Below, one piece after another: positions 3,442 through 55,232 of a stretch of 64,000 nt of DNA (the first letter of the stretch is position 1; each line of letters starts with the position of its first letter). Below the pieces are notes generated by a model, which saw nothing but the letters and a program-made list of their open reading frames with translations, had not been told where the DNA came from and made no database searches. The stretch spans positions 1 through 64,000 of the forward strand of contig CACHCH010000002.1 in NCBI GenBank assembly GCA_902578255.1, written 5' to 3'. Origin of the DNA: an uncultured Pelagibacteraceae bacterium (GTDB lineage: Bacteria > Pseudomonadota > Alphaproteobacteria > Pelagibacterales > Pelagibacteraceae). The position numbers and the translations under genes were made by a program.

Positions 3442-3446
3442 TTTTT

Positions 3447-3557
3447 ATGGATAATGAAAACCATAAAAATACCTGGAATAATTTTACAAAATTTGTGTTG
3501 TGGGGAACCGTCGCAGTCATTGGTGTTTTAGTTTTAATGGCAATTTTCTTACTATAA
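3447..3557 (+). CDS. aa3-type cytochrome c oxidase subunit IV-like small membrane peptide
   Basis: A 36-residue peptide found by reading the gap. A polar N-terminus (MDNENHKNTWNNFTKF) leads into one hydrophobic helix (from about VLWGTVAVIGVL to the C-terminal leucines). The pattern, with Lys-Phe then Trp-Gly-Thr entering the helix and MAIFL at the end, matches the bacterial aa3 CoxIV family (Pfam PF07835). In many Alphaproteobacteria such a peptide is encoded immediately before pntA, exactly as here (10 bases upstream). It would be an accessory single-helix subunit of the terminal oxidase; it is not known to be part of transhydrogenase. Identification rests on pattern and position. Confidence 0.8.
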   Translation: MDNENHKNTWNNFTKFVLWGTVAVIGVLVLMAIFLL

Positions 3558-8385: not shown

Positions 8386-8946
8386 TTAAATTTTTTTTAT
8401 GTATTCTATATTTCTTGAATCGATAATCACTTCGTCTCCTGACTCAATAAATGGAGGTACTTGAATATTTAATCCATTTTCTAGGGTTGCAGGTTTGTAT
8501 GATGAAGATACTGTTTGTGCTTTTAAAGCAGCATCAGTTGTTTCTATTTTACACTTCACCTGATTAGGCAGATCAACCGAAATTGGATTTTCATTATAAA
8601 AATTTATAGAAACCTCAAGATTTTCTGATAAAAGTTTCCCTCGATCTCCAACCACCTGTTTTTTAATTTCTATCTGTTCAAAAGTTTTTGGATCCATGAA
8701 AAAATAATGATTTTCATCATCATACAGGTAATTATATTTTGTCTCTTCTAAAGAAGCCTTTTCAACAGTCTCACTTGATCGAAATCTTTCATTTAATTTT
8801 GTATTTTTCCCAAAACTTTTCATTTCAACTTGGGCAAAGGCACCGCCTTTGCCAGGTTTTACATGCTGAGTTTTTAAAACTTGCCATAAATCATTTTTAT
8901 ACTCTAAAAGCATTCCAACTCTTATCTCACCAGCGTTAATTTTCAT
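8386..8946 (-). CDS. efp: elongation factor P
   Basis: A 186-residue three-domain protein (KOW-like N-terminal domain, then two OB domains). The loop KPGKGGAF at residues 30-37 carries the Lys that enters the ribosomal P site (K33, equal to the modified Lys34 of E. coli). EF-P relieves stalling at polyproline stretches. No epmA or epmB is seen in the window, so whether the Lys is modified is unknown. It overlaps the end of thiE by four bases. Confidence 0.97.
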   Translation of the reverse strand: MKINAGEIRVGMLLEYKNDLWQVLKTQHVKPGKGGAFAQVEMKSFGKNTKLNERFRSSETVEKASLEETKYNYLYDDENHYFFMDPKTFEQIEIKKQVVGDRGKLLSENLEVSINFYNENPISVDLPNQVKCKIETTDAALKAQTVSSSYKPATLENGLNIQVPPFIESGDEVIIDSRNIEYIKKI

Positions 8947-44733: not shown

Positions 44734-47387
44734 AAAAACTAATTTTAAATTTTACGTCTAAAGATAGCAAAAAAATTAAAATTCCTAGAAATTTTCTTGG
44801 TGGAAAAGGTGCTAATCTTTCTGAAATGGGCCGGATGGGATTACCGGTTCCACCTGGTTTCACTATTTCTACAAAAGTATGTGAGTTATTTTATAAAGAT
44901 AAAAAAAAACTGAGCAAAACTATAATCACATCAATTAAAAAAGAATTAAAGAGTGTGGAAAATGAAGTTTCAAAAAAATTTGGTGATTTAAAAAATCCAT
45001 TATTACTTTCAGTTAGATCTGGAGCAAGGGTTTCAATGCCTGGTATGATGGATACAATTTTAAATTTAGGACTAAACGATAAAACCGTTAAAGCCCTTGC
45101 TTCAAAAACACTTAATGGCCGATTTGCCAAAGATAGCTATAGAAGATTTATTCAAATGTATGGCACTGTAGTAATGGGTGTTGAAAGTTACCACTTTGAA
45201 GAGTTAATCGAGAATTATAAACTTACAAAAGGTGTTTTGTTAGATACTGATTTAGATGAAAATGACTGGGATGGACTAATTGAGGATTTTAAAAAAACAG
45301 TCAAGGAAAAAGCAAATAAAGATTTTCCACAAGATGTTCAAGAACAATTATTAGGAGCAATAAGTGCAGTATTTTTGTCTTGGGACAGTAAGAGAGCAAA
45401 AGTATATAGAAAATTAAATCACATACCTGCAGAATGGGGTACAGCAGTAAATGTTCAATCAATGGTTTTTGGAAATATGGGAAATGACTGTGCAACTGGG
45501 GTTGTTTTCACAAGAAATCCATCAGATGGTGAAAACGAAATATATGGAGAATATTTAATTAATGCTCAAGGAGAGGATGTCGTAGCTGGTACTAGAACAC
45601 CACAATATATAACAAAAAAAGCTAGACAAAATGCTAAAGTTAAAGCTTTATCGATGGAAGAGTCTATGCCTAAAGTTTACAAGCAACTTCATAAGATACT
45701 AAAAAAATTAGAGAAGCATTATAAAGATATGCAAGATGTAGAGTTTACAGTTGAAAATAAAAAGTTGTGGATGCTTCAAACACGTGCTGGAAAAAGAACT
45801 GCAAAATCTGCAGTCAAAATTGCAGTTGATATGGTTAAGGAAAAATTAATCTCAAAAAAAGAGGCTGTTTTAAGAATTGATCCTCACTCACTTGATACAC
45901 TTTTACATCCGACTCTAGATGAAAAAAGTTCAATTAATGTAATTGCAAATGGCTTACCTGCTTCACCTGGTGCTGCCAGTGGCAAAGTTGTATTTACATC
46001 TGAGGAAGCTGAAAGACTAACATCAATGATGCAGGACACAATATTGGTTAGAGTAGAAACCTCTCCTGAAGATATACAGGGAATGCATGCAGCTAAAGGT
46101 ATATTGACTGCAAGAGGCGGGATGACAAGTCATGCAGCTGTTGTAGCAAGAGGAATGGGAAGGCCTTGTGTTTCTGGATCAAGTGAAATTGATATCAATT
46201 ATGAAAATAAATTATTTAAAACACCATCAATGGAAATTAAAGAAGGAGAAATAATAACAATAGATGGTTCAACTGGAAGAATAATTGAAGGTAGTGTTGA
46301 AACTGTAAAGCCAGAAATATCTGGTGATTTTTCAAAATTAATGTCTTGGGCTGATAGTTATAGAGAATTAAAAATAAGAACAAATTCAGAAACCCCCAAA
46401 GATACTAAAACTGCAAAAGATTTTGGTGCTGAAGGTATTGGACTTTGCAGAACTGAGCATATGTTTTTTGACGAAGAGAGAATTTTATCTGTTAGGGAAA
46501 TGATTCTTTCTAAAACTAAAGAAGACAGAGCTAAAGCTCTAGATAAACTTTTGCCATATCAAAAAAAAGACTTTATGGAAATTTTTAAGATTATGAACGG
46601 CTTACCAGTTACTATAAGATTGTTAGATCCTCCTCTTCATGAATTTTTACCAAGAACAAAAAAAGAAATCAGTGAATTAGCAGAAATTGTTAATCTTTCG
46701 ATAAATGAGGTTGAAACAAGAATAGAAGAGCTTCATGAACAAAATCCGATGTTAGGCCACAGAGGTTGCCGATTGGCTATATCTTATCCAGAAATATATG
46801 AGATGCAATGTAGAGCAATTTTTGAAGCACTATGTGAGCTTAAAGAAAATAAAATTAAATCAGCCTTTCCTGAAATTATGATACCATTGGTTTCTACGGA
46901 AGCTGAAATTAAAATAATGAAAGATTTAGTAATTAATATTGCTAGTAAGGTACAAAAAAAACATAAAACAAAAATCAATTTCACGGTGGGAACAATGATT
47001 GAACTCCCAAGAGCAGTTATCAAGGCAAAAGAAATAGCAAAATATGCAGAATTCTTTAGTTTTGGCACGAATGATTTAACACAAACTACTTTTGGAATAA
47101 GTAGAGATGATAGTGGAAAATTTTTAAATGATTACATAGAAAATAAAATATTTTCTGTTGATCCATTTGTATCAATTGATGAAGGGGTTTCAGATTTAGT
47201 CGAGATTGCTGTTGCAAGAGGAAAGAGTCAAAATAAGAAAATAAAACTAGGGATATGTGGTGAGCATGGAGGTGATCCCAAAAGTATTTCTTTTTGTGCT
47301 AAGGCAGGACTTAATTATGTATCTTGTTCGCCTTATAGAGTTCCAGTCGCAAGATTAGCAGCTGCCCAAGCTGCACTAAAAAAATAA
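44730..47387 (+). CDS. ppdK: pyruvate, phosphate dikinase
   Basis: An 885-residue enzyme interconverting pyruvate, ATP and phosphate with PEP, AMP and PPi. Seen: FLGGKGANLSEMGRMGLPVPPGFT at the nucleotide-binding start, SVRSGARVSMPGMMDTILNLG, the phospho-His domain GGMTSHAAVVARGMGRPCVSG (His ~467) and the C-terminal TIM barrel with GTNDLTQTTFG and GICGEHGG. Length is normal. With gap, pgk and fba in this window it supports gluconeogenic or glycolytic flux without pyruvate kinase being required. It overlaps glyS by four bases. Confidence 0.98.
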   Translation: MKKLILNFTSKDSKKIKIPRNFLGGKGANLSEMGRMGLPVPPGFTISTKVCELFYKDKKKLSKTIITSIKKELKSVENEVSKKFGDLKNPLLLSVRSGARVSMPGMMDTILNLGLNDKTVKALASKTLNGRFAKDSYRRFIQMYGTVVMGVESYHFEELIENYKLTKGVLLDTDLDENDWDGLIEDFKKTVKEKANKDFPQDVQEQLLGAISAVFLSWDSKRAKVYRKLNHIPAEWGTAVNVQSMVFGNMGNDCATGVVFTRNPSDGENEIYGEYLINAQGEDVVAGTRTPQYITKKARQNAKVKALSMEESMPKVYKQLHKILKKLEKHYKDMQDVEFTVENKKLWMLQTRAGKRTAKSAVKIAVDMVKEKLISKKEAVLRIDPHSLDTLLHPTLDEKSSINVIANGLPASPGAASGKVVFTSEEAERLTSMMQDTILVRVETSPEDIQGMHAAKGILTARGGMTSHAAVVARGMGRPCVSGSSEIDINYENKLFKTPSMEIKEGEIITIDGSTGRIIEGSVETVKPEISGDFSKLMSWADSYRELKIRTNSETPKDTKTAKDFGAEGIGLCRTEHMFFDEERILSVREMILSKTKEDRAKALDKLLPYQKKDFMEIFKIMNGLPVTIRLLDPPLHEFLPRTKKEISELAEIVNLSINEVETRIEELHEQNPMLGHRGCRLAISYPEIYEMQCRAIFEALCELKENKIKSAFPEIMIPLVSTEAEIKIMKDLVINIASKVQKKHKTKINFTVGTMIELPRAVIKAKEIAKYAEFFSFGTNDLTQTTFGISRDDSGKFLNDYIENKIFSVDPFVSIDEGVSDLVEIAVARGKSQNKKIKLGICGEHGGDPKSISFCAKAGLNYVSCSPYRVPVARLAAAQAALKK

Positions 47388-48592
47388 TGCTAAATGTTTT
47401 TAATGAAAAAAGTAAATTAAAAAATTATAATTTATATCTTTTTATTATTTATATTTTTTGGATTATATCACTTATTCTATTTTATTCATTCAGTGAATAT
47501 ATAAAAGCTGGGAGTTTAGAAAATGGAGTTAAATTAGGAAACGACAGTCATTTTTATTTAAGAGAAGCAGCAAATATTATTGCAGGTAAGGCTTCAATAA
47601 TGGATTATAAATCAAAATTTGGCTATATATTTTTTCTATTACCTTTTGTGTATTTTGAGGTACCTCTAGTATTCATTGTTTATATTCAAATACTTTTAAC
47701 GGGACTTGCCGCCTGGCATCTTTACAGGATTGCGTCTACATATTTTTGTAAGTTGTCAGGAATTATTTGTATAGCTTTATTTTTATTTTATTTTCCACTT
47801 CAGATTAGAAATTTTTACATCCTTACAGAAATGCTTTTTATTGATTTAACAATTATACTAACTTATTTTTTAGTTTTTTATAAAAGATCATATATTCCGG
47901 TAATTTTTTTATTAATATGTACTTTAATATCTATTAGACCGAATGGTATACTTTATTTATTCAGTATTTTATTATGTACTTTTATATTTTTAATAAGGTA
48001 TAAAAAATATATTTTTTTATCTTGGTATTTAATAATTTTATTAATCTCAATTATTCCAATTATCAATCTTTTAAATAGTTACATGGCTGATCTTGATTTA
48101 ATAGATGGAATAAATACTAAGGGGATTGTTTGGGGATGGTCATTTGAGAATAATCGCCACTGTGAATATGATGGACCATGTTTAAGCATTGAATTTATTA
48201 ACAATAATTATCAAAATACTATTTTTGGTATTTTCCAATTTATTTGGGCAAATATCCTAAATTTCTTTTACGTTTTTATATTAAAAATATTTTGGTTAAT
48301 AGTAAGAGTTCGACCATATTACTCTGATTTACATAATTTCTATTTATTAATTTTTAATTTAATTTTATATCCAGGTTTCATTTATGGATTTATAAAAAGA
48401 CCAAAGAATAATTTTTCGTTAAATGTCATAATTTTTTTTATAGTGTTATCTCTAATTCTTGTTGGTTTAACTTTTGCTGATTGGAGTGGAAGATTTTCTT
48501 TATACTTTTTACCATTAATCATGATCTTTTCTTCATATGGGATATTAACTTTTACAAAGAAGGTTTTTAAATTTACCAAAGAGGATAATTAG
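47387..48592 (+). CDS. multi-pass membrane protein, GT-C glycosyltransferase-like
   Basis: A 401-residue protein with roughly ten membrane helices. After the first helix comes a loop with GNDSHFYLREAANIIAG, whose acidic residue after the first helix is typical of GT-C transferases that use lipid-linked sugars; ISIRPNGILYLFS lies mid-protein. I do not recognise a specific family and no exact substrate can be given. Its start shares one base with the ppdK stop, although its composition (very rich in Phe/Ile/Leu and AT) fits the accessory region that begins here. Its 3' end overlaps a minus-strand short ORF. Confidence 0.6.
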   Translation: MLNVFNEKSKLKNYNLYLFIIYIFWIISLILFYSFSEYIKAGSLENGVKLGNDSHFYLREAANIIAGKASIMDYKSKFGYIFFLLPFVYFEVPLVFIVYIQILLTGLAAWHLYRIASTYFCKLSGIICIALFLFYFPLQIRNFYILTEMLFIDLTIILTYFLVFYKRSYIPVIFLLICTLISIRPNGILYLFSILLCTFIFLIRYKKYIFLSWYLIILLISIIPIINLLNSYMADLDLIDGINTKGIVWGWSFENNRHCEYDGPCLSIEFINNNYQNTIFGIFQFIWANILNFFYVFILKIFWLIVRVRPYYSDLHNFYLLIFNLILYPGFIYGFIKRPKNNFSLNVIIFFIVLSLILVGLTFADWSGRFSLYFLPLIMIFSSYGILTFTKKVFKFTKEDN

Positions 48593-48662
48593 TATTGTCT
48601 TCATCCTTTCTCTCTTTTTTTTTAAATATATTCTTTAAATAATTTAATATTTTCTTAATCAT
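48573..48662 (-). CDS. short ORF, possible basic micropeptide
   Basis: A 29-residue reading frame, MIKKILNYLKNIFKKKER followed by KDEDNTNYPLW, whose ATG overlaps the TGA of the SGNH gene (ATGA), the coupling style used all through this window. The N-terminal part could form an amphipathic basic helix. It runs into the 3' end of the convergent membrane-protein gene by 20 bases. No family recognised; chance is quite possible. Confidence 0.3.
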   Translation of the reverse strand: MIKKILNYLKNIFKKKERKDEDNTNYPLW

Positions 48663-49936
48663 TTTTTATTTATTATAATATCAGTTATTTTACTAGCTAC
48701 TATTAAATTACCAAACTTATTAAGGTGCCCACTATCTATATAGGTTTGCTCTTTAACATCATCAAATACATTAGTTAAATCAGTAAAATCATATTTTTCT
48801 GAATCATTAAATAACTTATTTTTCAACTCTCTGTAAAAATTTTCATAAAATCTTGGCTGAATACTTGATAGCCCAATTTTTTTCCAAAAAAGTTCTTTTT
48901 CACTCAATTTTTTTTCTCCATAAAAGACTAGAGGTTGAAAAATCCAATAAAAGTCTATTTTCTGACCTTTGCATATTTCATGAGCATACTTATGTATATC
49001 AATATATTCTGAAACTAAATTTGGTATCATATTTTTAATTTCAGTTTCTCCACAATCTTTTAGTTTACTTTGGATTGTATTATTTATATTGGTTGTTTTT
49101 AAGCTAAAAAATTTGCCTTGTAATACATTAAATATTTTAGAAATAATTTTTAGTTTTATAAGATTTGAAATTATAGAAAAAGTATTAGCTAAGAATAATT
49201 TAAGTGCTCTTGTAAGTATCCAAAATAAGTCATAGGACGAATTTAATATAATATTATGCTCAACGTTTCGTATATTCTCTCCATCAAAAAAAGTAAATTT
49301 ATTATCTTTACCACTATTATTTTTTAGCACATGCATTTTTGCTAGATAAGATATACAATTCCACCCATCATAAAATATTACTGATGTTGGTTTAGCTAAT
49401 CTAAAAGCTTTATAAATCATTAAGTTGAAAGCTTCTTTGGAAGAGGTACCTCCTAGACCGAAATTGACACAAACAATTTCTTTTTGGTATCTTTTTTTTG
49501 AAATCTTTTCTATTAATGACGGAATAGAAAAGTTTGGAATTCCTGATCCTAATGACATGATAGTAGATCCACCAAATATATAGAATATTGGAGTATTATT
49601 TGTTTTTGCTTTTTGAATCCTTAAAATTGCATCCTCTGAATTAATTGAATTTTTTAAAATACCGTTTGAGTCTGTTTCAAAAACATCCATTCCTTCTGAT
49701 GGTCTTATATTCCAGGCTGTTGAGATGTTTTCGCCATACATATGCCCATAAAATGAACTTGGTTTTAGAAATTTTCTAGCCATTAGAATATTATTAATAT
49801 CCTCAGAGCTATCTATTGGACCTATAAATTTTGAGCTATTATTTTTTTTCGCTAATTTTAATAACTGTTCATTAGAGATATGTGACATAGACTCTTTTAT
49901 TAAATCATCCAAGTCTTTTAAATGTTCTATGCTCAT
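48659..49936 (-). CDS. SGNH/GDSL hydrolase-like protein of surface polysaccharide region
   Basis: A 425-residue protein. Seen: block I FIFGGST-like IFYIFGGSTIMSLGSG near residue 120 (the Ser of GGST in the GDS position), block II-like NFGLGGTSSKEAF (Gly near residue 160), a VIFYDGWN in the block III position and the C-terminal DSGHLNKFGN with the Asp-x2-His pair of block V. This is the SGNH order, as in esterases or O-acyl hydrolases of sugar clusters. No signal peptide is visible. It probably acts on an acylated glycan or lipid; the substrate is unknown. Confidence 0.65.
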   Translation of the reverse strand: MSIEHLKDLDDLIKESMSHISNEQLLKLAKKNNSSKFIGPIDSSEDINNILMARKFLKPSSFYGHMYGENISTAWNIRPSEGMDVFETDSNGILKNSINSEDAILRIQKAKTNNTPIFYIFGGSTIMSLGSGIPNFSIPSLIEKISKKRYQKEIVCVNFGLGGTSSKEAFNLMIYKAFRLAKPTSVIFYDGWNCISYLAKMHVLKNNSGKDNKFTFFDGENIRNVEHNIILNSSYDLFWILTRALKLFLANTFSIISNLIKLKIISKIFNVLQGKFFSLKTTNINNTIQSKLKDCGETEIKNMIPNLVSEYIDIHKYAHEICKGQKIDFYWIFQPLVFYGEKKLSEKELFWKKIGLSSIQPRFYENFYRELKNKLFNDSEKYDFTDLTNVFDDVKEQTYIDSGHLNKFGNLIVASKITDIIINKK

Positions 49937-49976
49937 ATTTTATTTATAAACTAAAATAAATTTGAAAATAGATATA

Positions 49977-50888
49977 TTAAATTTTATTTTGTAAATGAAT
50001 GAAGAAATGGCCGGTAAATTTATGTTGTTTGTCGTTATTTTTATAAGGTTTAATAATTTTACTTTCAATTATACTCAAATTTGATCTTTTCGCGTAAACA
50101 TCATAATTATGTGAAAAAGAAATATCTCCCCTATTATTAGATATTAAGTTTTTTTTGTTATCAATTAATCTTAAATCGAATGGTTCATTTATAAAAAGGT
50201 TAAGATTTTCAAAATTTTTAATTTTTTTAAAAAAATCTTCTAGAAAATAAGGATGAACATACTGTAGGCTACTCATTGAAAATAATAGAATATTTTTGCT
50301 ACTTATTTCAAAGTATTTTATACATTCATCTATATTTTCTGCATAGCACTTAAAATATTGCAAATTTTTATAAAAATACTTTTCTTTCTGAAAATCAAGA
50401 ATCTCATCACTTATATCAGTAGAAATATAATTTAATTTTGGAAATTGTTTTAAAAAAAATTCTAAATCCCGTCCTGAAGAAGAACCCAATTGAATTATAT
50501 AAGTATCTTTGTTTTCTGTAATATTATTATCTCTAATAAATTTAATTATTTTTTCGAATATTGGAACAGCTTCATTGTGATAAAGAATTCCAATTTTTTG
50601 TTTTCTTAAATTTTCCATTGTAGTGAAATGGTTGTTGTAATAATGTAATGCCCATTTCCTTCCTTCTCCATCTTCTAATGTTGAAACTGATAATTCCCTC
50701 ATTTTGTACTTATCATCAAGTTTGTTAATATATTCTTTTTGGAAAATTGTATCTAATAAAAGCCAAAAAATATTTTTTTTTTTAAAACGATTAGATATAA
50801 ATCTTTTTTGCAAAATTTTTATCAATGGGGTTTTAATAAATATTAATATTAGTGGAAATTTTAATATACCGTAGATTAATTTTTTCAT
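49977..50888 (-). CDS. class I SAM-dependent methyltransferase-like protein
   Basis: A 303-residue protein with a hydrophobic, basic N-terminus (MKKLIYGILKFPLILIFIK) that may be a membrane-surface helix. The core shows a SAM-binding-like YIIQLGSSSGRDLEFFLKQF near residue 130, then ISTDIS at the next strand end (acidic ribose-binding residue) and LFSMSSLQYV. These fit a Rossmann methyltransferase with a Ser-rich motif I. The target is unknown; position suggests glycan or lipid modification. It is followed upstream by the tmRNA gene. Confidence 0.6.
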   Translation of the reverse strand: MKKLIYGILKFPLILIFIKTPLIKILQKRFISNRFKKKNIFWLLLDTIFQKEYINKLDDKYKMRELSVSTLEDGEGRKWALHYYNNHFTTMENLRKQKIGILYHNEAVPIFEKIIKFIRDNNITENKDTYIIQLGSSSGRDLEFFLKQFPKLNYISTDISDEILDFQKEKYFYKNLQYFKCYAENIDECIKYFEISSKNILLFSMSSLQYVHPYFLEDFFKKIKNFENLNLFINEPFDLRLIDNKKNLISNNRGDISFSHNYDVYAKRSNLSIIESKIIKPYKNNDKQHKFTGHFFIHLQNKI

Positions 50889-51054: not shown

Positions 51055-51079
51055 CTTATTTGTATATTTAATACAACTG

Positions 51080-51380
51080 TACTTTAGAAAAATGAGTAAG
51101 GACATCCGAAACCTTTGATAAGGGGCGTTCTGTTGCCAGGTGCCCCATACCCCGTCTACTTAATTAACAAAGTTAATTAGGCAGCAAGTGCGTAACTTTC
51201 GTTAGCAATTATAAATTAGCCCGTCACGGTGGAACAATCCCGAACGAAAGAATAACTTTTAGTCATCCGTCGAATCTAGTTCACCCCCTTAAGTTATAAT
51301 GGTGGAGGTGGTGGGTACTGCCCCCACGTCCGCAATGGTTATTACGAAATTCGTTTATCGTCGTAGTTGGAAAACCAACA
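51080..51380 (-). ncRNA. ssrA: circularly permuted two-piece tmRNA
   Basis: On the minus strand the acceptor piece comes first and ends in CACCTCC-ACCA (CCA at 51302-51300); after an 11-base spacer the coding piece starts GGGGGTGAACTAGATTCGACGG (51288 down). GGGGGTG pairs with CACCTCC as a seven-pair acceptor stem. A P2 helix can be drawn between the pieces: GTTATT and TTCGT of the coding piece with AATAAC and ACGAA of the acceptor piece. The tag frame is present, and a GGGGC...GCCCC hairpin lies near the coding-piece end. The T loop is the odd GGCAGTA, which I believe is usual for alphaproteobacterial tmRNA. It rescues stalled ribosomes. The exact 3' end is uncertain. Confidence 0.93.
51177..51206 (-). 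other. tmRNA proteolysis tag reading frame
   Basis: Ten codons including the stop encode ANESYALAA, so the full tag would be an alanine from the charged tmRNA followed by this peptide. The final ALAA is the standard degradation signal recognised by ClpXP-type proteases. Tandem stops follow (TAATTAA). Confidence 0.9.
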
Positions 51381-51385
51381 ATTTA

Positions 51386-51413
51386 AATATAGATTAAATA
51401 ATTAATTATTCAA
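51386..51413 (-). promoter_or_regulatory. candidate promoter for tmRNA
   Basis: On the minus strand TTGAAT (51413-51408) and TATATT (51391-51386) are 16 bases apart, and the tmRNA acceptor piece begins about seven bases after the -10 box. It overlaps the last codons and stop of the DUF2304 gene. Confidence 0.5.
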
Positions 51414-51758
51414 TTTATTATTTTTACTATCGTTTTCTAATAAGGTTATTTTTTTTTCAAACTCTTTAATTTTTCTTTGATGATTAGTTATTATAGTTGA
51501 AAGATGTATAATAATTGTCCCTAGCCCAAGTATTGCGATAACTAAAACTCCTATAGGACTAAATTTAATACCAAGTAAAGCAGATACAAAAGAAATTATA
51601 TTTGGAAAAAATGCAATAGATATAAAAAAAATACCAATTAGTATCCATATGAAAGAATACATGGGATCTAATTTTTTTTTTCTTACAAATAATAAAATCA
51701 CACAAATAATTACAACACCAATTAAGAAAGCTGTTAATCTTGAGTGTAAAGATATCAT
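51402..51758 (-). CDS. DUF2304 family small membrane protein
   Basis: A 118-residue protein with three hydrophobic segments (residues ~7-25, 33-55 and 62-88) and a charged coiled-coil tail ending in Asn/Lys repeats. The pattern RKKKLDPMYSFIWILIGIFF and the size fit DUF2304. Genes of this family are commonly next to a GT2 glycosyltransferase, and here the GT2 gene ends five bases before this start. It may help the transferase at the membrane; function is unknown. Confidence 0.75.
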   Translation of the reverse strand: MISLHSRLTAFLIGVVIICVILLFVRKKKLDPMYSFIWILIGIFFISIAFFPNIISFVSALLGIKFSPIGVLVIAILGLGTIIIHLSTIITNHQRKIKEFEKKITLLENDSKNNKLNN

Positions 51759-51763
51759 AATAA

Positions 51764-52471
51764 TTATTTTTTAAAGTTAAAATTAATTAATGTTAATAAG
51801 ATTAATATATTTTTAAACATATATATAAACGAATTTTTTAAATTAAAAGAAGAAGTACCAGTTTTTCTTTCTTTCATGTTTATAAATTTCTCTTTTATAG
51901 ACATTTTTAGTCTACTAGCCTGGCATATAATGCCTACTTCAGAATATTCAAAAAGTTCATCATTGATAAGTTCTCTAATTAACTTTTTACTTAAAATTTG
52001 GCAACCTGATGTACAATCAGTAACTTCAGTTTTATAAAGAATTTTAATTAATTTTCTAAGCAGCCTTATACTATATAATCTTAGTTTATTTGGATTATAT
52101 TCTGATTTGCTCAAAAATCTGGACCCAATAGTCAGATCACTATTTTCTTTAATTGCAAATTTTAAAAGCTCTTTCACATCTGAAGGTGAATGTTGACCAT
52201 CGCCATCAATTCTCACTAAAAAGTCATAATTATTTTTATTTGCAAAAAGTATTCCTGTCTCTATTGCTAGACCTAATCCAAATATTCTATCAATTTGAAT
52301 TATGCCTGCATTTGTTTTTTTTACTTCTTTTAAAGTTTCATCTGAAGAATATGCATCGATAACAAATATATCAGCTGTCTCAAAATTACTCTTTATATCT
52401 GAAAGAACCTTGTTTATTATTGAACCTTCATTATAAGTTGGTATTACAATGAGAATTTTTTCCTCATTCAT
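51764..52471 (-). CDS. GT2 family glycosyltransferase (dolichyl/undecaprenyl-phosphate sugar type)
   Basis: A 235-residue GT-A fold enzyme: KILIVIPTYNEGSIINKVL at the N-terminus, the sugar-nucleotide Asp in VIDAYSSDET, and the metal motif VRIDGDGQH (DxD, residues ~93-101), followed by DLTIGSRF. These fit DPM1-like transferases that charge a polyprenyl phosphate with a sugar. No C-terminal membrane helices; membrane anchoring may come from the adjacent DUF2304 protein. It directly abuts the nucleotidyltransferase gene. Confidence 0.85.
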   Translation of the reverse strand: MNEEKILIVIPTYNEGSIINKVLSDIKSNFETADIFVIDAYSSDETLKEVKKTNAGIIQIDRIFGLGLAIETGILFANKNNYDFLVRIDGDGQHSPSDVKELLKFAIKENSDLTIGSRFLSKSEYNPNKLRLYSIRLLRKLIKILYKTEVTDCTSGCQILSKKLIRELINDELFEYSEVGIICQASRLKMSIKEKFINMKERKTGTSSFNLKNSFIYMFKNILILLTLINFNFKK

Positions 52472-53188
52472 TTAATTGATTTTTTTACTTAATCTTTTTT
52501 CAACTTTTTTTAAATTTTCCATGTTTTCTATACCAAGCCAATAGTCTTTGATATTGTAAGCCCCTACCTTAAGCCCTTTTAAAAGGTACTTATCAATGAG
52601 ATCAGGCATAGTAAAAAATCTGTTTTTTGGAATTAGATTCAAGTTTTTTGTATTTTTAATTATATAAATACCAGAATTTATATTAAAAAAACTATTAGGT
52701 TTTTCAGTTATACTTTTCACTTCATTATTTTTTATATTTAAAACACCAAAACTGTTCTTATATTTTTTTTTAATATAACCAATCAGTAAGTCAAAATTAT
52801 TTTTTTTTGCAAAATTCATCATTTTTTTAAAATTTAATTCAGTATAGACATCACCATTTATTAAAAAAAAATAATCATTTGTTTTCAAAGTTTTTTTCAT
52901 ATTACTCAGTGGACCTGCTGTACCAAGGGGTTTTTTTTCGTTAAAATACTTTACTTTTATTCCTAATTTTTTCCCATTACCTAAATATGCTTTTATTAAT
53001 TCTGATTGATAACCAGTAGAAATAAAAAAATTTTTAAATTGATATTTTTTAAATGCTTTTATCAAATACATCAAAATTGGATTTTGATTAATAGGCATTA
53101 ATGGTTTTGGAATAACAAAACTAAAAGGATTAAATCTTTTGCCTTTGCCTCCAGAGAGAATAATTACCTTAGAAGTACTGTTTTTCAT
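52472..53188 (-). CDS. sugar-phosphate nucleotidyltransferase
   Basis: A 238-residue NTP-transferase. Seen: the nucleotide-binding VIILSGGKGKRFNPF with IPKPLMPINQNPIL (residues ~9-37), the metal-binding LINGDVYTELNF near residue 110, and GVLNIKNNEVKSITEKP. It should make an NDP-sugar. The combination with a LegB-like dehydratase just upstream resembles GDP-amino-sugar steps of nonulosonate pathways, but the sugar and the nucleotide are not known. It lacks the left-handed beta helix of GlmU. Confidence 0.85.
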   Translation of the reverse strand: MKNSTSKVIILSGGKGKRFNPFSFVIPKPLMPINQNPILMYLIKAFKKYQFKNFFISTGYQSELIKAYLGNGKKLGIKVKYFNEKKPLGTAGPLSNMKKTLKTNDYFFLINGDVYTELNFKKMMNFAKKNNFDLLIGYIKKKYKNSFGVLNIKNNEVKSITEKPNSFFNINSGIYIIKNTKNLNLIPKNRFFTMPDLIDKYLLKGLKVGAYNIKDYWLGIENMENLKKVEKRLSKKIN

Positions 53189-53203
53189 GTATATCTTTCA
53201 AAT

Positions 53204-54175
53204 TTATTGGTTGTATATTTCAAATTTAAAAAGTTTTTTATTTTTCTCAATCCAATCAATAGTTTTTTCTAATCCATTTTCTAAATTATATTCTGGCTTC
53301 CAGTTAGTATATTTTTTGATTTTTGAATTATCACATACTAGTCTATTTACTTCACTTTTCTCAGGCCTAATTCTTTTTTGATCAGTAATAATTTTTATTG
53401 TTTTACCAGTAATTTTAGAAATTTTTTTGATTAAATTTTTTATAGATATTTCTTCATTCATTCCAATATTTGTACTCTCTCCGTTTAGCTTTTCGTTTTT
53501 AGATATTTCAATAAAACCATTTGCTGTATCTTTTACAAATGTTAAATCTCTCGTAGTATTTATGTTGCCCAATTTTATTTCTTTTATGTCGTTCAAGATT
53601 TGTATACAAATACTTGGAATTATTGCTCTAGCAGATTGTCTTGGACCGTAAATATTAAAAGGTCTTACAATTTTGATTGGTAATCCAAAGGATCTATGGA
53701 AACTTTCTGCTAAATTGTCGGCTCCAATTTTTGTAGCTGAATATGGTGATTGACCAACCTTAGGATGTTTTTCATCTATCGGAATATATTGAGCAGAACC
53801 ATAAGTTTCACTGGTAGAAGTAATTATAATATTCTTAGTGTTAAGTAATTTTGCACTTTGCAAAACATTGTATGTTCCTTCAATATTGGTTTTTATATAT
53901 GCCAAAGGTGATAAATATGAATATGGAATTCCTATCAAAGCCGCTAAATGAAATACTTCATCAATGCCTTGCATGGCAGAAAAAACCGAATCAAAATCTC
54001 TAATATCTCCAAACACAAACTCAATATTTTTTTTATATTCAGAGTTTTCTAGCCAACCCCAATTGTTATTAGAGTCATAATGCATTAAAACTCTTACTTC
54101 GTGTCCATTTTCAATAAGTTTTTCTGTTAAGTGTGACCCTAAAAATCCAGCAGCACCTGTGACTAATACTTTCAT
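53204..54175 (-). CDS. NAD-dependent 4,6-dehydratase, LegB-like
   Basis: A 323-residue extended SDR. Seen: VTGAAGFLGSHLTEKLIENG at the N-terminus, then VRVLMHYDSNNNWGWLE, the sequence pattern I associate with LegB-type UDP/GDP-GlcNAc 4,6-dehydratases, the catalytic SETYG and Y145-x3-K149 (PYSATKIG), and RPFNIYGPRQSARAIIP. It probably makes a 4-keto-6-deoxy sugar nucleotide. It is the first gene of the minus-strand group dehydratase-nucleotidyltransferase-GT2-DUF2304. No aminotransferase partner (LegC-like) is in the window, so the pathway is incomplete here. Confidence 0.8.
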   Translation of the reverse strand: MKVLVTGAAGFLGSHLTEKLIENGHEVRVLMHYDSNNNWGWLENSEYKKNIEFVFGDIRDFDSVFSAMQGIDEVFHLAALIGIPYSYLSPLAYIKTNIEGTYNVLQSAKLLNTKNIIITSTSETYGSAQYIPIDEKHPKVGQSPYSATKIGADNLAESFHRSFGLPIKIVRPFNIYGPRQSARAIIPSICIQILNDIKEIKLGNINTTRDLTFVKDTANGFIEISKNEKLNGESTNIGMNEEISIKNLIKKISKITGKTIKIITDQKRIRPEKSEVNRLVCDNSKIKKYTNWKPEYNLENGLEKTIDWIEKNKKLFKFEIYNQ

Positions 54176-54284: not shown

Positions 54285-55232
54285 ATGATTCTTACAGATT
54301 CTCAAAAAAAAGAAATAAAAGATCAGCAATCTCAAAAAAATGAGACTAAAAGGGTAACAGCTCCACAGTTAGAAAAAATACTATATGAAGCTATCCCTGC
54401 TTTAGATCATGGATTTGTAAGAGTTGTTGATTATATGGGTGATGATACTTCAATAGTTCAATCAGCCAGAGTTTCATATGGAAAAGGTACCAAGCAAGTA
54501 TCAACAGATGCAGGTTTAATTAAATATTTGATGAGACATTGGCACAGTACTCCATTTGAGATGTGTGAAATTAAATATCATGTTAAACTTCCAATATTTA
54601 TTGCCAGACAATGGATAAGACATAGAACTGCAAATGTTAATGAGTACTCTGCAAGATATTCGATTTTGGATAAAGAATTTTATTTACCATCTCTAGAAAA
54701 TTTGGCTGCGCAATCAACCAGCAATAGACAAGGTAGAGGAGATGTACTTGAAGGAAAACAAGCAGAAAAAGTCTTAGAACTTTTAAAAGAAGATGCTGAG
54801 AGAACTTATGAAAACTATGAAAATATGCTTAATGAAAGATATGATGGATCAACTATCGATGAAAATAAAAAAGGATTAGCAAGAGAACTTGCAAGAATGA
54901 ATTTAACTTTAAATACTTATACCCAATGGTATTGGAAAACTGATTTATTAAACTTAATGAATTTCTTAAGATTAAGAGCTGATAGTCATGCGCAATATGA
55001 GATTAGAATTTATGCAAATATAATGTTAGATACGGTAAAAAAATGGGTTCCTATAACTTATGAAGCTTTTATGGATTATAGAGTTGGAGGCACAGAAGTT
55101 TCAGCTAAAGGAAAATTAATTATACAAAAACTTATTAAAGGTGAAAATGTTGATGTAAATAACTCAGGTCTTTCAAAAAGGGAGTGGAATGAACTAATGG
55201 TTGCTTTTGATCTTAAAGATAAGATGATTTAA
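54285..55232 (+). CDS. thyX: flavin-dependent thymidylate synthase
   Basis: A 315-residue ThyX. The diagnostic motif [15 protein letters not shown] is at about residues 112-126, with [11 protein letters not shown] before it and [15 protein letters not shown] near residue 235. It makes dTMP from dUMP using methylene-THF and FAD with NADPH. It bounds the accessory region and is divergent from the LegB-like gene across 109 bases. Its 3' end overlaps the convergent mrp gene by 20 bases. Confidence 0.97.

Follow-up and report, generated by a model that had tools for sequence, protein, structure and literature searches.

The window, i.e., the whole stretch of 64,000 nucleotides analysed here, possesses a complete ssrA gene of the permuted two-piece type on its minus strand (51394-51086; called by ARAGORN as tmRNA*, with the tag ANESYALAA). 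An earlier note, made from the letters of the sequence, had placed such a gene between a methyltransferase gene and a DUF2304 gene, giving no strand. All the elements that it named are present and lie on the minus strand, in the order acceptor piece with CCA, 11-nt spacer and coding piece; the coordinates of all three and of the tag come from ARAGORN and Rfam. Of the two proposed neighbours, DUF2304 is recognised by Pfam, while the "methyltransferase" (49977-50888) yields no Pfam or NCBIfam match at an E-value of 0.001. The features of the locus are as follows.

47387-50888, mixed strands: accessory genes orf401 (plus), orf425 (minus) and orf303 (minus), between ppdK and ssrA
51077-51121, minus strand: 3′ flank resembling a mobile-element end (type A of L042, L043, L095 and L133)
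51086-51394, minus strand: permuted ssrA, ARAGORN limits (Rfam alpha_tmRNA, 51118-51417)
51122-51146, minus strand: 3′-terminal 25-nt hairpin GGGGCACCTGGCAACAGAACGCCCC, the putative attachment core in relatives
51122-51288, minus strand: coding piece, from the acceptor 5′ strand GGGGGTG to the 3′-terminal hairpin (3′ end predicted)
51177-51206, minus strand: tag frame ANESYALAA with its stop codon (ARAGORN)
51289-51299, minus strand: intervening spacer TTATAACTTAA, 11 nt
51300-51379, minus strand: acceptor piece, comprising the 5′ hairpin GTTGG..CCAAC, the T arm and the acceptor 3′ strand (Rfam alignment, ARAGORN 3′ tRNA domain)
51302-51300, minus strand: CCA of the acceptor piece
51386-51413, minus strand: putative core promoter TTGAAT-16-TATATT (consensus scan listing, conservation across 41 loci)
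51402-54175, minus strand: inserted surface-sugar genes encoding DUF2304, a family-2 glycosyltransferase, a nucleotidyltransferase and a LegB-like dehydratase
54285-55232, plus strand: thyX, the usual direct neighbour of ssrA (TIGR02170, 206 bits; synteny)

Two other RNA features were found in the window by the Rfam cmscan: a pntA RNA motif (3443-3504, 96.3 bits) and a 5S rRNA gene (894-1008). According to a passage of PMC2217521, the 5S gene of strain HTCC1062 borders the hypervariable region HVR2.

The cmscan of the whole window matched alpha_tmRNA (RF01849) at 217.4 bits (E = 1.4e-61; 51417-51118, minus strand), against a gathering score of 50, which settles the Infernal check proposed in the note. 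The model tmRNA_permuted (RF04321; gathering score 47) matched at 127.7 bits (E = 1.2e-24). These matches are not due to chance, and both are full-length, covering model positions 1-355 and 1-213, respectively. The spacer of the Rfam consensus is longer than that of the window, a short spacer being usual for the window's group.

The acceptor 5′ strand GGGGGTG (51288-51282) pairs with CACCTCC (51310-51304), thereby joining the two pieces. All seven pairs of this stem form in each of 92 distinct ssrA sequences, the window's included; the set comprises 65 sequences of the order and 27 of other Alphaproteobacteria, one of the initial 93 having been dropped as its ARAGORN CCA boundary was one base off. 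The third pair is G-U in all 92, whereas at pairs 5 and 6 both partners change (G-C/A-U and U-A/C-G), i.e., they covary between separate pieces. The acceptor stem and P2 had both been paired across the pieces in the note; the former is borne out by this covariation, and the latter by the family model, the lowest-energy fold lacking a whole P2. In that fold, calculated for the linear transcript, the acceptor stem spans the spacer and P2 is incomplete. Its energy is 2.65 standard deviations better than that of shuffled sequences, none of 100 shuffles being as good. Because the linear fold shows P2 incompletely and the Rfam alignment contains three non-standard pairs in the helices joining the two pieces, the structure given here is that of the family model.

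A G3-U70 pair sets alanine identity, and it is present in the 7-bp acceptor stem of the window's gene. The tag frame opens with an alanine codon and ends with ALAA. The genome also encodes SmpB (PF01668, contig C3, E = 1.1e-57). We propose that ssrA has a promoter of its own, immediately ahead of the acceptor piece, from which minus-strand transcription would start near 51379, the predicted 5′ end of that piece as judged from the position of the putative promoter. The precursor would then fold, its acceptor stem and P2 pairing across the pieces. By analogy with the two-piece tmRNA of Caulobacter, reportedly described by Keiler in 2000, processing enzymes would remove the 11-nt spacer and leave a nicked two-piece RNA; the Caulobacter gene is said to share the order acceptor piece, spacer and coding piece and to differ in spacer length and tag sequence. 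As in other members of the family, the tmRNA would be charged with alanine via G3-U70 and bound by SmpB, enter stalled ribosomes, add ANESYALAA to the unfinished protein and recycle the ribosome.

A decayed or silent ssrA, left in a genomic island while a working copy resides elsewhere, would also account for a gene that sits among accessory genes with thyX displaced by 2.8 kb of sugar genes, particularly in a genome that is just 82% complete. However, the search of this genome (1.0 Mb in 31 contigs) with RF01849 returned the window's ssrA as the sole locus. The standard model RF00023 gave three matches of at most 29.1 bits, under its cut-off of 47; since it also matches archaeal control genomes, these three are presumably tRNAs. 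No second ssrA over cut-off was thus found with either model in the 82%-complete genome, and the second full copy that the note had named as a possible objection did not appear. Structure, tag and putative promoter are intact, and beyond the insert stand thyX, mrp, hflK, hflC and degP, as they do beside ssrA in 40 of 40 relatives; the window's ssrA therefore occupies its native locus. A silent copy is accordingly very improbable.

An origin from a phage with its own permuted tmRNA appears even less probable, indeed close to negligible. Phages with tmRNA are known, and a passage of PMC9004378 reports that marine ones carry the permuted form; the 25-nt end of the window's ssrA also occurs in eight viral contigs (IMG/VR, L107-L114), each of which encodes a whole permuted tmRNA. 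Yet the tags of these viral genes are ADENLALAA (seven of eight) or AKTINADENLALAA (one of eight), whereas the window encodes ANESYALAA, as do many relatives, at a host locus conserved in synteny. Both of these origins were rejected on the grounds of the sole ssrA found in the 82%-complete genome, its native locus and the differing viral tags. The strong alpha_tmRNA match and the lack of a second ssrA over cut-off in that assembly support the permuted two-piece alphaproteobacterial reading of the note, and the window's ssrA is almost certainly the single working gene of the cell, in the circularly permuted alphaproteobacterial form.

Such a gene is ordinary in this group. Of 61 relatives, 49 have an RF01849 score over cut-off and 52 a match at E 0.001; for the 298 genomes of the order with a completeness of at least 80%, the figures are 276 and 280, respectively. 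For the 22 order genomes that have no match over cut-off, incompleteness is the one explanation at hand; among the 150 genomes at least 90% complete, 143 match at E 0.001 and seven show no match at all. In the class, RF04321 exceeds its cut-off in 182 of 192 genomes (187 at E 0.001), in agreement with the expectation, voiced in the note, of permuted tmRNA in Alphaproteobacteria.

The spacer had been described as very short, and so it is when set against the 75-125 bp that a passage of PMC2704228, citing a database, quotes for permuted tmRNA; the counts for the window's group do not fit that range. Across 44 distinct loci of the window's family, with its own locus entered once, the spacer measures 11 nt in 7, 12 nt in 33, 14 nt in 1 and 16 nt in 3. 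It spans 4-9 nt in the sister family (21 loci) and 5-48 nt in 28 other Alphaproteobacteria, a non-random sample made of the best-scoring 30 less two that had no ARAGORN call. An unusually short spacer is hence rejected for the window's group, in whose family 11-16 nt is the rule. With the gene in 276 of the 298 order genomes and these family lengths, both gene and spacer represent the norm here.

A passage of PMC2704228, published in 2009, describes a permuted tmRNA beside thyX in Candidatus Pelagibacter ubique HTCC1062. That ssrA is likewise two-piece and is directly adjoined by thyX on the opposite strand, whereas in the window four surface-sugar genes stand between the two. The window's permuted ssrA is therefore of an already known kind in a slightly unusual setting; its description has value for annotation, as permuted ssrA genes are easily missed.

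The setting was compared with that of 40 relatives of the genus and family, hand-picked from hit lists, over up to 20 kb around ssrA. Relative to the 3′ boundary that ARAGORN sets for ssrA, thyX starts at +336 to +362 on the opposite strand in 35 of them, and in all 40 it is followed by mrp, hflK, hflC and degP. The window's thyX lies at +3199 from that boundary because of four intervening genes, whose products are DUF2304, a glycosyltransferase of family 2, a sugar nucleotidyltransferase and a dehydratase of the LegB-like kind; the last scores 458.9 bits, slightly under the model cut-off of 475. On the ppdK side, orf401, orf425 and orf303 gave no Pfam or NCBIfam match. The accessory surroundings seen in the note thus reflect a local insertion at the usually conserved ssrA-thyX junction. 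Taken together, the accessory genes appear to be insertions on both sides of ssrA, with the order ppdK, ssrA, thyX conserved and the putative promoter kept.

In the five remaining relatives, thyX is displaced as well, by genes other than the window's. By eye, these encode large membrane proteins in L036, L085, L090 and L099, and a large membrane protein together with a family-2 glycosyltransferase in L098; the profile scan of these inserts covered one membrane protein, which had no match, and the L098 glycosyltransferase. The thyX-mrp gap is closed or almost closed in many relatives. It is wider by about 1.9-4.2 kb in 14 of 40 (L032, L033, L036, L037, L040, L046, L047, L048, L049, L082, L086, L090, L094 and L099), while L051 and L100 show a smaller widening of 0.6-0.7 kb. 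Plasticity thus extends over all of ssrA-thyX-mrp.

A −10-like TATATT precedes the first hairpin by 6-7 nt in all 41 loci, the window's included, and TTGAAT stands 16 nt above it in 35 of 41. Six loci carry an insert on the 5′ side; of these, the window, L085 and L098 retain an exact TTGAAT, L036 and L099 have a near-match (ATGAAT or TTGAAA), and L090 lacks the motif. The promoter call rests on this conservation, since a consensus scan of the window's stretch alone found 4 sites against 4.8 in shuffles, i.e., no excess. The −35-like TTGAAT falls within 51402-51413, in the last codons of the DUF2304 gene. This overlap suggests that the insert joins just above the putative promoter, and ssrA may for the same reason also receive read-through from the sugar genes.

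The 3′ end of ssrA leads beyond the gene itself. With up to 5 mismatches allowed, the terminal 25 nt recur as 13 extra copies in 11 of the 40 loci, in every case on the same strand and 3′ of ssrA. The 25-mer is present in 62 of 64 genus genomes (those at least 93% complete and the window's own; up to 2 mismatches), 27 of which hold at least two copies, counted irrespective of whether one of them is the ssrA end; a reversed control pattern occurs in 0 of 64. Of the weak extra alpha_tmRNA matches in relatives (18.8-34 bits), which had looked like chance, three (G014, G025 and G009) fall on such copies.

These copies could simply be terminator hairpins that have spread, the 3′ flank of ssrA then being unrelated to mobile elements. 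The 25 nt do form a strong hairpin (−11.8 kcal/mol), and a stop codon directly precedes several of the copies that lie away from ssrA (by eye). Against a terminator stands the fact that most extra copies are exact in the loop too, as well as their uniform strand and position 3′ of ssrA noted above. The copies diverge from ssrA beyond 25-27 nt, and the upstream stretch ATTATTCGCGAATAATG is exact in eight copies from seven loci, which again argues against spread terminators. The same flank types also recur at ssrA and elsewhere: the outer flanks of copies distant from ssrA in L132 and L133 are of the types found at ssrA in L099/L100 and in L042/L043/L095. Copies away from ssrA, some with such flanks, are possibly secondary islands. 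They were seen in L118, L129, L131, L132 and L133, where they directly follow genes with a similar C-terminus (NEVDLLAR-like, by eye), and also in L117, L122, L123, L127, L128 and L130.

Integrase-bearing elements bracketed by such copies also speak against the terminator explanation. A tyrosine integrase of 343 aa (PF00589) starts about 55-60 nt past the ssrA end in L115, L135 (AG-333-N19) and L137 (AG-435-B08; 51% identity); a fourth relative, from SAR116 (L138, 34%), adjoins tRNA-Arg instead of ssrA. Two elements could be delimited.

L135, 3921-8470: integrative element from the ssrA 3′ end to a displaced 25-nt copy, on one contig
L115, 7351-9013, with L116, 1-2698: integrative element of G140, on two contigs

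The element of L135, about 4.5 kb long, extends from ssrA across the genes for the integrase and a 501-aa protein as far as another 25-mer at 8446. A tRNA-Leu stands 24 nt past this copy; in empty relatives, the same tRNA-Leu comes after ssrA. By eye, the 501-aa protein is similar to a protein of L116 with a weak match to a PHROG primase family (E = 5e-7). L115 and L136 belong to one genome, G140, of the window's genus; since the ends of its element lie on two contigs, their linkage is an assumption, and the sequences at the filled ends agree with the empty site of L041 to the left and right of a 27-nt shared core, which counts against spread terminators. No second 25-mer was found within the 9 kb of L137.

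An intact target gene with a displaced fragment of its 3′ end in the same orientation is thus seen in L135, in L116 and with all 13 extra copies of the 11 loci. Islander islands at tRNA and tmRNA genes, as described in a passage of PMC4383910, likewise show an intact RNA gene, an integrase and a displaced fragment at the far end. In contrast to those islands, the putative SAR11 site is a non-tRNA-like 3′ end created by permutation, and the window has no far-end copy.

Other observations favour the terminator explanation. No integrase was recognised by eye between the copies in the 11 loci; in L082, L086, L099 and L100, the only PF00589 match of the genome lies elsewhere, and one of the 64 genus genomes (G140) has such a match beside ssrA. 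All eight viral contigs with the 25-mer hold the whole tmRNA, and none has the 25-mer outside it, so that no free phage attachment site was found. Apart from this, a scan of viral contigs for the integrase gave a single weak partial match (47 residues, 36%). The integrase matches 272 phage records, all at less than 60% identity and 20 of them from Pelagibacter phages; the primase-like protein has none among the phage records. Weighing both sides, we regard spread terminators as unlikely.

We instead put forward, tentatively, that a family of integrative elements attaches at the 3′ hairpin of SAR11 ssrA. The family would include integrase-bearing elements of about 4.5 kb and tiny cassettes lacking an integrase, many of them with a single gene, whose ends are shared and whose site is copied. 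The cassettes would be mobilised in trans, accumulate one after another behind ssrA and give rise to secondary islands elsewhere in the genome; the window's ssrA would carry a worn end, and the locus would act as a gene-acquisition hub. As a whole, this proposal is quite possible but falls somewhat short of probable, because integrases are rare, no free phage site was found and the hairpin may be a terminator.

In the window itself, the signs are faint. The 25-nt end is single-copy in the window and its genome (up to 3 mismatches). The search for a decayed far-end copy downstream in the window reached 13 of 25 positions, no better than shuffled queries, and that for the shared right end of the elements reached 19 of 29, equal to shuffled queries. 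No integrase lies near the window's ssrA, the only PF00589 match of the genome being on contig C16. The 45 nt past ssrA agree with the type A ends at 32 (L042), 30 (L043), 31 (L095) and 30 (L133) of 45 positions, the best other positions on both strands of the window reaching 27, 27, 26 and 29, respectively. Compared with L095, the window's flank ranks fifth of 88 flanks, and the next one has 22. These figures hint that the flank may be the worn end of a mobile element, possibly one that inserted at the end of ssrA in the past and has decayed since then. The genes orf401, orf425 and orf303 may have come with it; two of the three run in the direction of ssrA, unlike most small-cassette genes.

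The attachment-site pattern, most of which is seen in loci other than the window, is a more interesting lead than the gene. For cyanobacteria, Williams reportedly described in 2003, in "Traffic at the tmRNA gene", integration at the end of permuted ssrA that is not tRNA-like. Our searches of the open-licence literature turned up no account of integration at ssrA in SAR11, and the use of ssrA as an attachment site there is probably a new detail of a known phenomenon. If true, it would extend to Alphaproteobacteria the adaptation of integrases to the non-tRNA-like end of an RNA gene that is reported for cyanobacteria. It would also provide streamlined ocean bacteria with a concrete route to gain accessory genes at the ssrA 3′ end, so that cells which are among the most streamlined of all free-living ones would have a small hub for acquiring genes at this locus.
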